From Pseudomonadota bacterium (GTDB taxonomy: Bacteria; Pseudomonadota; Alphaproteobacteria; Micropepsales; Micropepsaceae), in assembly GCA_021851325.1 (NCBI GenBank), contig JAJZDZ010000001.1, positions 1 through 64,000 of the forward strand: 64,000 nucleotides of DNA, in the 5' to 3' direction. Of this stretch, positions 4,140 to 30,982 are shown piece after piece. The translations under genes were made by a program, and so were the position numbers. The number at the start of each line of letters is the position of its first letter. The first letter of the stretch is position 1. The notes under the pieces were generated by a model. That model was not told where the DNA came from. It ran no database searches and worked only from the letters and a program-made list of their open reading frames with translations.

Positions 4140-5313
4140 ATCATGCGGCGGGAGCGTTCCCGTACAACCAGAAACAGGCAGGCACGGGCGCAAGCATCTT
4201 GCCATTCTCGCACTTTTATTGTTGCCGCTCGTCGCCTGTGGACCACGTTCCGCACACCATGCGCTGTCATCAAAGCCGAGTAATGTCACACTGACCCCGG
4301 CCCAGCGACAGCATATCGCGATCTATAAGGTCGAGCCCGCCAGCTACCGCAAGAGTGTGATCGCAAACGGCGTTGTCGAATTCGACAAGGACCAGTCGAC
4401 AACCATACTTGCTCCGATCTCCGGACCGGTTACCCGTCTTCTCGCCACACTAGGCCAGAAGGTGAAAAAGGGCACGCCTCTGGCAACGGTGGCATCCCCG
4501 GACTACGCCACTGCCGTTGGCGCCTATCAGACAGCGATCGCAACGGCACGTGCCGCCCGCCACGTGGCGGACATGGACAGGGATCTTCTGAAGCATCATG
4601 GCGTATCGCAGCGCGAGGCCGAACAGGCGGAAGCGGACGCGGTCAGTGCGGAAGCCAACGAGCGCGCCGCTCGACAAACCCTCCGGTCGCTAAACGTCTC
4701 AGCCAGGATCATCGCGGCCGCCGCTGCAGGCCGCCCGGTTGGCGCAGTCGAGGGCATGATCCGCTCTCCCATACCCGGGACCGTCGTCGGCAAGACAATT
4801 TCGCCCGGCGAACTGCTTCAGGCTGGTTCAACGCGCTGTTTCACCATCGCTAACCTCTCGCACATGTGGGTCATGGCACAGGTGTTCGGTTCAGACCTCA
4901 GACAGGTTCATGTCGGCGACCCAGTTACGGTGATGACCGGCATCAAGGGTGGACGATTTACAGGCCAGGTTGACAACATTGCGGCGGTTGTCGATCCCCA
5001 TACCCGCTCGGTAGCCGTGCGCGTGCTCGTCGACAATCCCGGTGAATTCCTCAAGCAACTGATGTATGTGCGCGTCAGGATCGAGGACAAGAAGCCCAGC
5101 ACCGGGCTTCTGGTTCCAGTCTCTGCGGTATTGCGCGACAGCAACAATCTGCCATTTGTTTACATCGAGGAACCCGATGGCAGCTTTGCCCGCCGCAGCG
5201 TTCGGTTGGGCTACCGCTTTGGCGATCGTTACGCCATCAGCACCGGAATTCATGCCGGCGACCAGGTCGTCGTCAATGGCTCCCTCTTCCTCCAATTCAT
5301 GCAGAACCAATGA
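4129..5313 (+). CDS. RND efflux periplasmic adaptor (CzcB/HlyD family lipoprotein)
   Basis: Membrane-fusion protein of 394 residues linking the inner-membrane pump to the outer-membrane factor. A hydrophobic segment ends in LPLVAC (lipobox, Cys37), so it is probably anchored as a periplasmic lipoprotein. Visible parts are a barrel-sandwich (lipoyl-like) half (ISGPVTRLLATLGQKVKKGTPLATV), a helical hairpin at about residues 125-195, the second lipoyl half (MIRSPIPGTVVGKTISPGEL), and beta-barrel and membrane-proximal domains up to the end. It overlaps the preceding gene by 11 bp and the next by 4 bp, so all three are almost certainly translated as one operon. No His-rich N-terminal metal-binding stretch is present, so the ion cannot be told. 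Confidence 0.9.
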   Translation: MTTKSCGGSVPVQPETGRHGRKHLAILALLLLPLVACGPRSAHHALSSKPSNVTLTPAQRQHIAIYKVEPASYRKSVIANGVVEFDKDQSTTILAPISGPVTRLLATLGQKVKKGTPLATVASPDYATAVGAYQTAIATARAARHVADMDRDLLKHHGVSQREAEQAEADAVSAEANERAARQTLRSLNVSARIIAAAAAGRPVGAVEGMIRSPIPGTVVGKTISPGELLQAGSTRCFTIANLSHMWVMAQVFGSDLRQVHVGDPVTVMTGIKGGRFTGQVDNIAAVVDPHTRSVAVRVLVDNPGEFLKQLMYVRVRIEDKKPSTGLLVPVSAVLRDSNNLPFVYIEEPDGSFARRSVRLGYRFGDRYAISTGIHAGDQVVVNGSLFLQFMQNQ

Positions 5314-28946: not shown

Positions 28947-29012
28947 GACGGGCCTCCAAGACGGCGGGGGCGCAGAGTGGTGACTTACGTCGCACCGGTC
29001 AAGCGCCAGCTT

Positions 29013-29402
29013 CTAGCGAAGAGCCGGCTTGCCGTAGCGGATAACCTCGACCTTCTCGAGTGTCACCAGGCCTGATCCCATGATGGCGTCGAGGACAGGC
29101 AGAAATGCCGTGACCTTGTCCCTGCTGTCGACGATCTCGATGACCAGGGGCAGGTCCTGCGACAGGCGCAGAATTTTGGTGGTGTGCAGATGGCTCGAAG
29201 CCCCAAAGCCCATGGGGCCACGCAGCACCGTGGCGCCGGCAAGCCCTGCCTCTCTGGCCTTGAGGACGATCGCTTCATAGAGTGGGCTGCCATCGCTGCG
29301 GTCATCCTCACCTACAAAAATGCGCAGTAGCGTGGCCTCGCTTGGCAAACTCCTGAGGCCTGCTGGCCCAGTCTTGTCGTCGGCGCCCGTCTTTGTGCTC
29401 AT
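29013..29402 (-). CDS. DUF190-family protein, partner of CrcB
   Basis: A 129-residue small cytosolic protein of the DUF190 (COG1993) family, which often sits next to crcB and has a PII-like ferredoxin fold. LLRIFVGEDDRSDGSPLYEAIVLKAREAGLAGATVLRGPMGFG and the C-terminal LPLVIEIVDSRDKVTAFLPVLD are the conserved parts. The start lies 1 nt after the crcB stop, so it is under the same riboswitch. A regulatory or accessory role in fluoride resistance is inferred from this linkage; no biochemical function is known to me. Confidence 0.83.
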   Translation of the reverse strand: MSTKTGADDKTGPAGLRSLPSEATLLRIFVGEDDRSDGSPLYEAIVLKAREAGLAGATVLRGPMGFGASSHLHTTKILRLSQDLPLVIEIVDSRDKVTAFLPVLDAIMGSGLVTLEKVEVIRYGKPALR

Positions 29403-29403
29403 A

Positions 29404-29808
29404 TCAGGCTCCCTTCAATTGGTTGAGCGCATTGGCGCAGATGACACCGAGCCAGACCGAAACCAGGCAGGCAGTCACCGAGCCCGCGACATTTACGCCG
29501 GCATAGCCCCATTCGCCGTCCTGCATCAGCGCAAGGGTCTGCAGGGAAAAGGAAGAAAAAGTCGTAAAGCCGCCACAAATTCCCGCCATCACGAACTGCC
29601 GGCCCATGGAGCCGACGAATACCCGTCCGTCCGGCGCCGTCAGCGCCGCAAAAAAGCCGATGACAAATGAGCCGATAATGTTCACCGCAAGGGTGCCGAA
29701 GGGAAAGGTTTCACCGATGGAGCTGGCCACCAGTCCCGAAAGGCCAAACCGCGCCATGCTGCCCAGCGCGCCGCCGAGCCCGACCAGCAGATAAAGCTTG
29801 TATCCCAT
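29404..29808 (-). CDS. crcB: Fluoride ion channel CrcB (Fluc)
   Basis: Small dual-topology fluoride channel, 134 residues and four hydrophobic helices. GLGGALGSMARFGLSG, FPFGTLAVNIIGSFVIGFFAAL (Asn in TM2) and AGICGGFTTFSSFS (the Phe-box/TM3 break with the central Na+ site) are the family signatures. The ATG at 29808 is set by GGCAGGAGT 2 nt upstream and by the fluoride riboswitch that ends 62 nt before it; an apparent longer open frame to 30006 runs through the riboswitch and is not coding. It exports fluoride when intracellular levels rise. Confidence 0.95.
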   Translation of the reverse strand: MGYKLYLLVGLGGALGSMARFGLSGLVASSIGETFPFGTLAVNIIGSFVIGFFAALTAPDGRVFVGSMGRQFVMAGICGGFTTFSSFSLQTLALMQDGEWGYAGVNVAGSVTACLVSVWLGVICANALNQLKGA

Positions 29809-29870
29809 ATACTCCTGCCATAGCTCCAACGGGCAGGTTGCGTCCGCACGCAACCCGCACCATGTTCTCG
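29809..29870 (-). promoter_or_regulatory. Expression platform of the crcB riboswitch (anti-SD hairpin region)
   Basis: On the transcript, the ribosome-binding site GGCAGGAGT (29811-29819) is exactly complementary to ACTCCTGCC at the 3' end of the aptamer (29871-29879). Between them a perfect 8-bp stem, GGTTGCGT-GCGG-ACGCAACC (29836-29855), would bring the two together. Without ligand the start region can be hidden in this long-range helix; ligand binding would release it. Translational control is inferred from the pairing alone. Confidence 0.7.
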
Positions 29871-29935
29871 GGCAGGAGTCATCAGCTTTGACATCCCTTA
29901 GGATGTGTCCGGCGGTTTCGGGGGACCCCATCCCC
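29871..29935 (-). ncRNA. Fluoride (crcB-motif) riboswitch aptamer
   Basis: Read on the minus strand, the sequence has the conserved blocks in order: GGGGATGGGGTCCCCC, then GAAACCGCC, a variable stem ACATCC-TAAG-GGATGT, and CTGATGACTCCTGCC. These match the crcB motif (GGNGATGG-NN-TTCNCC, AACCGCC, TGATGACTCCT), with TCC in place of TTC in the first block. It precedes crcB and DUF190, genes known to be under this riboswitch. The aptamer senses fluoride with Mg2+. Confidence 0.92.
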
Positions 29936-29977
29936 ATCACCGGCAAAGTGACCAATTTTGAAAGCAGCGTCAATCGC

Positions 29978-30982
29978 ATGGACGGCAAAGGCGTCACCAC
30001 GGCCACGATCGCAGAGGACGAAGCAGGGGTCAGGCTCGATCGCTGGTTCCGTCGCCACTATCCGGCGCTGTCTCACATTCAGCTGGAAAAGCTGCTGCGC
30101 AAGGGCGAAGTCCGGCTTGACGGCAAACGCGCCAAAGCCTCGGACCGGCTCTGCGCCGGCCAGAGCATCCGCCTGCCACCACAGGTCCGTCATCTGCCCC
30201 CCACGCCCGCTGCCACCAGCCCCAAGGCGCAGGACGCCAGCCTGATTCGTACGCTTGTCCTGCATGCCGACGATCAGGTGTTTGTCCTCAACAAGCCAAG
30301 CGGGCTTGCCACCCAGGGCGGTTCAGGTCTGACCCGCCATGTCGACGGCATGCTCGATGCCCTGACCGAGGGCCGCCGTCAGCGACCACGCCTCGTACAC
30401 CGCCTCGACCGCGATACCTCGGGCGTACTGGTTGTCGCCCGCACCGTCCCCGCTGCTGCGAGCCTGGCTGAGGCCCTGCGCCGCCGCGATGCCAACAAGA
30501 TCTACTGGGCACTGGTCACGGGAATCCCCAAACCGCAGAGTGGCACCATCAAGCTTGCCCTTGCCAAGCGAAGCTTTTCCGGTGGCGACGAACGCATGGT
30601 GCCGGCCGAACGCGATGCCGACGACGCCAAAGCGGCGGTCACCGACTACCGCGTGCTCGGCGTCGCCGGACGCAGCTATGCCTGGCTTGCCGTCAAGCCT
30701 GTCACCGGACGCACGCATCAGATCCGGGCCCATCTGGCAGCCATTGGACACCCTATCGTCGGCGATCACAAATATGGCGGCGCCGCCGCAGCCGGTAGCG
30801 GTGAGATCACCGACCGGCTGCATCTGCACGCCCGCAGCATAGACATCGCCCATCCTTTAGGCGGCCGGCTCAAGGTCGCGGCGCCGCTGCCGCCCCACAT
30901 GATGAAGACCTGGCAGCTTCTGGGCTTTGATCCTGATACACAGAGCAATCCCTTTGCAGCGCGCAAGCCAGCCTCACCATGA
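29978..30982 (+). CDS. RluA-family 23S rRNA pseudouridine synthase (RluC-like)
   Basis: Converts specific uridines to pseudouridine in 23S rRNA. The 334-residue product has an N-terminal S4 RNA-binding domain (RLDRWFRRHYPALSHIQLEKLL...GEVRLDGKRA, residues 19-51) and the RluA catalytic domain with LVHRLDRDTSGVLVVAR (Asp144), IYWALVTG, and VKPVTGRTHQIRAHLAAIGHPIVGD. The ATG at 29978 is chosen because upstream codons cross the divergent riboswitch promoter region. ATP12 follows after 46 bp. In many alphaproteobacteria a HAD phosphatase gene sits between them; it is absent here. Confidence 0.9.
   Translation: MDGKGVTTATIAEDEAGVRLDRWFRRHYPALSHIQLEKLLRKGEVRLDGKRAKASDRLCAGQSIRLPPQVRHLPPTPAATSPKAQDASLIRTLVLHADDQVFVLNKPSGLATQGGSGLTRHVDGMLDALTEGRRQRPRLVHRLDRDTSGVLVVARTVPAAASLAEALRRRDANKIYWALVTGIPKPQSGTIKLALAKRSFSGGDERMVPAERDADDAKAAVTDYRVLGVAGRSYAWLAVKPVTGRTHQIRAHLAAIGHPIVGDHKYGGAAAAGSGEITDRLHLHARSIDIAHPLGGRLKVAAPLPPHMMKTWQLLGFDPDTQSNPFAARKPASP

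Follow-up and report, generated by a model that had tools for sequence, protein, structure and literature searches.

The question raised by this locus was whether the short strand that closes a putative fluoride riboswitch upstream of crcB could serve either in the ligand-binding fold or as a block on the crcB ribosome-binding site (SD). The locus lies on the minus strand of a stretch of 64,000 nucleotides (64 kb) that was analyzed as a whole and is called the window here; the original prediction, from which the question comes, had named no strand. Fluoride was reportedly identified as the ligand of this riboswitch class by Baker in 2012. Our analysis of the sequence makes it very likely that crcB is under the control of a fluoride riboswitch whose platform switches translation ON, and this control probably extends to the DUF190 gene that follows. 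The computed base of this reading consists of the aptamer match, the exact complementarity between an aptamer strand and the SD stretch, the bases that this strand has in common with the pseudoknot, the missing U-run and the covariation across loci. From comparison and folding predictions we infer fluoride binding, the order of folding and the effect on translation.

A search of the window with cmscan against Rfam 15 at the gathering thresholds returned one match only, RF01734 (Fluoride), with a score of 42.8 bits against a curated cut-off of 34 and an E-value of 1.6e-08, and this is also the single RF01734 match in the 3.53 Mb genome (G000). The alignment spans the full model (1-64), is not truncated and lies 5' of the fluoride-resistance gene crcB. 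The aptamer blocks GGGGAUGGGGUCCCC, AAACCGC and GCUGAUGACUCCU align with the RF01734 consensus, so that the predicted match to the crcB motif was borne out by the covariance model. Compared with the crcB motif of Weinberg 2010 (PMC2864571), the window shares the full-length match, the GAUGG, AACCGC and GCUGAUGACUCCU blocks and the downstream crcB gene; the sole difference is a longer variable stem, in which the alignment leaves 25 positions unshown where the consensus has 9. The feature had been placed at 29809-29935, and it is real, but its upper end was set too short because the Rfam aptamer extends to 29944. Within the aptamer, GGGGUC and GACUCC can form six pairs including one G-U, and this complementarity is taken to represent the aptamer pseudoknot because known members of the class have one of 6 bp (PMC11077080). 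These sequence features point to a genuine fluoride riboswitch, one that would be expected to bind fluoride. The coordinates of its parts and of the genes downstream are collected in Table 1.

Table 1. Positions of the riboswitch elements and of the genes downstream in the window
Feature	Position	Strand	Evidence
Fluoride riboswitch aptamer (RF01734, crcB motif)	29866..29944	-	cmscan
P1 5' strand GGGG, partner 29923-29920	29932..29935	-	Rfam structure line
P1 3' strand CCCC	29920..29923	-	Rfam structure line
Loop strand GGGGUC, putative 5' pseudoknot partner	29924..29929	-	complementary to GACUCC 29880-29875, one G-U
Putative 3' pseudoknot strand GACUCC, common to anti-SD	29875..29880	-	conserved GAUGACUCCU block, Rfam alignment
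Anti-SD ACUCCUGCC	29871..29879	-	complement of 29819-29811; duplex -16.3 kcal/mol; homologue covariation
Hairpin between anti-SD and SD, loop GCGG, 11 pairs including one G-U	29833..29858	-	MFE fold
crcB SD region GGCAGGAGU, core AGGAG 29816-29812	29811..29819	-	sequence
crcB (Fluc-type fluoride channel), 134 aa, ATG at 29808	29404..29808	-	PF02537, E 1.6e-27
DUF190 gene directly 3' of crcB	29013..29402	-	PF02641, E 1.9e-39

The aptamer match ends 57 nt before the crcB AUG, a start that agrees with the starts of the homologues; an in-frame TTG at 29829 and an out-of-frame AUG at 29821 that overlaps the SD were set aside as crcB starts for that reason. A second GGAG (29827-29824) lies just 5' of this out-of-frame AUG, the two covering 29827-29819 of the minus strand; both are present in L019 and only the AUG in L028. 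The crcB stop codon is separated by one base from the ATG of the DUF190 gene, and the two genes probably belong to the same operon; a carboxyl transferase gene follows. On the other side, a divergent pseudouridine synthase gene has a candidate ATG at 29978, with only 33 bases (29945-29977) between it and the aptamer 5' end, and with so small a gap the promoter of crcB probably lies partly within that gene or within the promoter of that gene. A promoter scan of 29000-30300 found no sigma-70-like promoter.

The nine-nucleotide pairing at the center of the original prediction is present exactly as described: the anti-SD stretch, ACTCCTGCC as DNA, is the perfect complement of the SD stretch, GGCAGGAGT, with 51 nt between them. 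The hairpin that had been seen between the two arms is present as well, its 8 contiguous Watson-Crick pairs extending to 11 with one G-U (29858-29833); the base of its stem is conserved in L019 and L028, while the letters at the tip vary. Only 3 nt separate the GGAG from the crcB AUG, a short spacing that counts against the reading. The anti-SD and the 3' pseudoknot strand have five nucleotides in common, ACUCC, and because of this overlap the aptamer and the SD block would be mutually exclusive. The minimum free energy fold of 29944-29780 includes both the SD block and the hairpin at -74.5 kcal/mol, compared with a mean of -58.34 kcal/mol for shuffled sequences (z -3.97; none of 200 shuffles as good). 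The arrangement fits an SD-sequestering platform: the SD is complementary to a strand that would be taken away on ligand binding, and neither the sequence nor a consensus scan showed an intrinsic terminator between the aptamer and the start.

We propose that the aptamer would fold before the rest, while the RNA is still being transcribed. Once fluoride and Mg2+ are bound, the GGGGUC:GACUCC pseudoknot would be locked and ACUCC occupied, leaving the SD open to the ribosome. When fluoride is lacking, the SD, made about 60 nt later, would capture ACUCC(UGCC) in a helix of 9 bp that closes over the 11-pair hairpin, and formation of this helix would undo the pseudoknot and block initiation. By crude energies the SD duplex (-16.3 kcal/mol) is far stronger than the pseudoknot duplex (-7.4 kcal/mol), and the full sequestering arm reaches -42.6 kcal/mol against -25.0 kcal/mol for its inner part alone. 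The SD block would thus be favored at equilibrium, and fluoride would therefore have to act kinetically or by strong stabilization; judging from these energies, it most likely holds the aptamer during and just after transcription.

The accessibility of the SD was also predicted by folding, as the unpaired SD fraction when neither the aptamer nor the seven leading letters of the anti-SD were allowed to pair. Predicted exposure rose from 0.00-0.02 to 0.16 in the window (L001), to 0.30 in L019, 0.63 in L028, 0.58 in L002, 0.45 in L003, 0.29 in L087 and 0.40 in L118; the rise in the window was the smallest of seven loci with direct SD pairing and hardly beyond the range of loci without a direct block, because its SD can also pair into the coding sequence. 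The direct locus L086 gave no rise (0.36 to 0.37), and L139, L164 and L165 were left out of the folding. Relatives with partial pairing changed from 0.17 to 0.52 (L004), 0.17 to 0.33 (L012), 0.34 to 0.50 (L014), 0.17 to 0.24 (L020) and 0.14 to 0.28 (L058). In ten loci where the complement of the pseudoknot strand follows the aptamer immediately (L005, L008, L010, L011, L016, L021, L024, L046, L048 and L050) the change ranged from -0.26 to +0.15, and L010, which has no direct SD block, went from 0.19 to 0.34.

Transcriptional attenuation is the alternative that survives best, although we regard it as unlikely. It would turn the stem of ACUCCUGCC and GGCAGGAGU into an unusual terminator, or into a component of one that depends on Rho or on pausing, and it draws on several loci of the same genus or class in which an early complement of the pseudoknot strand is followed by a G+C hairpin and a U-run (for example L016, L024, L046-L048, L050), as well as on the fluoride switches of B. 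cereus and other known cases, which work by termination (PMC11077080). For the window the terminator reading was rejected, because sequence inspection found no U-run between the aptamer and the crcB AUG and a consensus scan found no terminator-like site on the minus strand in 29000-30300. Furthermore, in the window, L019 and L028 the pseudoknot strand has its complement in the SD itself, with 3 to 4 nt between that complement and the start codon.

Chance is another possible source of the pairing. Aptamers of this class conserve CUCCU, and (A)GGAG is common to SDs in general, which makes five of the nine pairs nearly free and leaves only about four that are informative. The match could then be a coincidence between a normal aptamer and a normal SD, with regulation achieved otherwise or absent. 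Inside the window, GGCAGGAGT occurs twice, as this SD and as the complement of the aptamer strand, and nowhere else, where 0.47 occurrences were expected and 4 of 100 shuffles gave at least 2. As the match is largely free, a comparison across loci was made.

The RF01734 searches covered genome sets that overlap. In the family, 23 of 96 genomes had a match at E 0.001 and 21 had one over the cut-off; the corresponding figures were 27 and 19 of 385 for the class, 67 and 57 of 398 for the phylum, and 30 and 25 of 199 and 91 and 87 of 198 for two other families of the class. The 199-genome family added 22 loci over the cut-off (L131-L152), and the 198-genome family contributed 30 new loci (L158-L187) from among the places listed for it. 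The comparisons excluded eleven loci that scored below the Rfam cut-off (L022, L023, L026, L062-L069) and L153-L157, likewise below it, while L129 and L130 were retained at 33.7 and 32.5 bits, also below it; 17 loci (L029-L045) stand outside the counts, two of which, L029 and L030, are probably the same places as L019 and L028, given contigs of identical length. The 154 loci used contained 92 with a CrcB match; in 82 of these a start lay within 160 nt, and removing near-duplicates left 79.

For each locus, 12 nt from the pseudoknot strand on and the 24 nt before the start were taken, and duplexes with the own partner were compared with those formed by swapped partners. In the near set, whose loci have their start at most 80 nt away and lack a U5 run (TTTTT), limits that were set after the sequences had been inspected, the 36 deduplicated CrcB loci paired better with their own SD: the mean duplex energy was -10.13 kcal/mol for own and -9.11 kcal/mol for swapped partners, with 66 of 20000 shuffles as good, and the mean helix length was 5.92 against 5.34, with 18 of 20000 as good, the shuffles ignoring relatedness among loci. 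The other 43 CrcB loci showed no effect of swapping (13519 of 20000 by energy, 19177 of 20000 by helix length). Over all 79 deduplicated loci the effect was weak (967 of 20000 by energy and 1884 of 20000 by helix length). Earlier runs had given 265 and 110 of 20000 (energy and helix length, respectively) for all 50 loci then available, 13 and 4 of 20000 for a near set of 27, and 48 and 15 of 20000 for that near set without the two closest relatives of the window (n=25). The genus of the window alone, with 9 SD-proximal loci, gave no significant result (3139 of 20000 by energy, 5268 of 20000 by helix length) because most members have identical letters. The comparative test is the proper test of the pairing; the near loci without a U-run pass it and all loci together do so weakly, but the genus taken alone does not. 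On the whole the comparison supports the pairing.

Covariation speaks to the same point. When CUCC was kept paired to fix the register, 24 of the 38 near loci could be aligned to it, 11 of them with a helix of at least 7 pairs. Among these 11, position 7 is G-C in six, A-U in four and G-U in one, position 8 is C-G in eight and U-A in three, and position 9 is C-G in eight, U-G in one, U-A in one and broken in one; the counts describe the variation and do not prove it, because helix length was what the 11 loci were picked by, and because L001, L019 and L028 are closely related. Two positions outside both conserved cores vary on both sides. The clearest covarying loci are L003 from the genus of the window (ACUCCUGU with ACAGGAGU), L087 with 12 contiguous pairs, L118, L139, L164 and L165. 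On the other side, L004 and L012, relatives with the same crcB, retain only 5 contiguous SD pairs; L020 has six, and L014 has none in that register. The nearly free pairs, the genus-only result and the weak result over 79 loci favor coincidence, while the significant swap effect in the 36 near loci, the lack of one in the other 43, the two varying positions and the count in the window argue against it, and we consider it very unlikely.

That the SD block works mainly through mRNA stability or Rho access after loss of translation, as general knowledge of translational riboswitches might suggest, is extremely improbable in our judgment, although the sequence cannot tell it apart from an initiation block.

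Translational control through the shared strand thus remains the best-supported reading, and the original proposal that the same bases would be either in the aptamer or blocking the ribosome fits the five-nucleotide overlap, the lack of a terminator-like site and the covariation. Mutually exclusive pairing of pseudoknot and platform is an already known mechanism of fluoride riboswitches (PMC11077080). The P. syringae and B. pseudomallei fluoride riboswitches are described as translational controls (PMC13273304), another report words such control as acting 'presumably through translation regulation' (PMC8814607), and a covariation motif of aptamer plus hairpin is taken by its authors to cover both kinds of platform (PMC13273304). 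Because translational fluoride riboswitches have already been published, the switch in the window is an ordinary case of a known class; by itself it confirms rather than extends existing knowledge, and it offers a compact natural example of one short strand that would choose between the ligand pocket and ribosome access. With the P. syringae and B. pseudomallei switches (PMC13273304) it would have in common fluoride control without intrinsic termination. In transcriptional members the platform captures the pseudoknot strand (PMC11077080, PMC13273304); this capture when fluoride is lacking is shared by the B. cereus and T. petrophila switches and, as proposed, by the window, but in the former the invader is a terminator hairpin (PMC11077080), whereas in the window it would be the ribosome-binding site. 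The phylum-level loci L080-L082 differ in that the complement of their pseudoknot strand, judged by eye, stands apart from the SD, while in the window it is the SD itself. Also by eye, the SD stretch GGACAGG of L080-L082 can pair with an upstream CCTGTCC, which suggests an indirect relay platform.

The relatives raise the more interesting point, still a modest one, that the platform may have changed repeatedly. Loci of the window's genus that carry a different CrcB (49-54 percent identical to that of the window) have the pseudoknot-strand complement right after the aptamer, as in L008 and L024, where ACUCCUACCGC pairs with GCGGCAGGAGU with one A-C mismatch, and in some, for example L016 and L024, a hairpin with a U-run follows. 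A CrcB tree of 81 of the 82 loci (L152, with 77 aa, was dropped), which has few columns and many unresolved forks, requires 7 changes of the direct-SD label, at least 5 of them forced by well-supported branches, compared with 10.5 changes for shuffled labels (2 of 500 as low as 7); the label had been assigned manually to those 11 loci whose helix has at least 7 pairs, and L004, L012 and L020, with partial SD pairing, were counted as other. The direct-SD form is therefore clustered, yet it would have been gained or lost several times. We lean slightly toward a class-wide, repeated change of output between a terminator-like hairpin and the SD, with at least 5 gains or losses and both forms within one genus, and with the window in a covarying direct-SD subclass. 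Among the papers listed by searches of an open-access collection, no description of such a subclass of the fluoride platform was found. The relatives would form a ready set for testing how riboswitches of one class shift between control of transcription and control of translation.

Several other loci in the sample have features of their own. L024 and L006, in the genus of the window (G038:C357, 4806-4883 minus and 4949-5010 plus), are two divergent fluoride riboswitches with a gap of 65 bases. By eye, the translated frame after the riboswitch resembles enolase in L009 and a multi-pass membrane transporter in L007, L017, L018 and L047. In L052, also by eye, an AGGAG that could bind the pseudoknot strand stands ahead of a 14-codon frame; this frame stops just short of a CrcB-like start and may encode a leader peptide to which translation is coupled. 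Finally, 20 fluoride riboswitch matches were counted in G1044, from another family of the class (on C139, C134, C21, C186 and others), several of them head-to-head about 110-225 bases apart, and G957 has 10; such numbers suggest a large fluoride regulon, perhaps a fluoride or organofluorine island.
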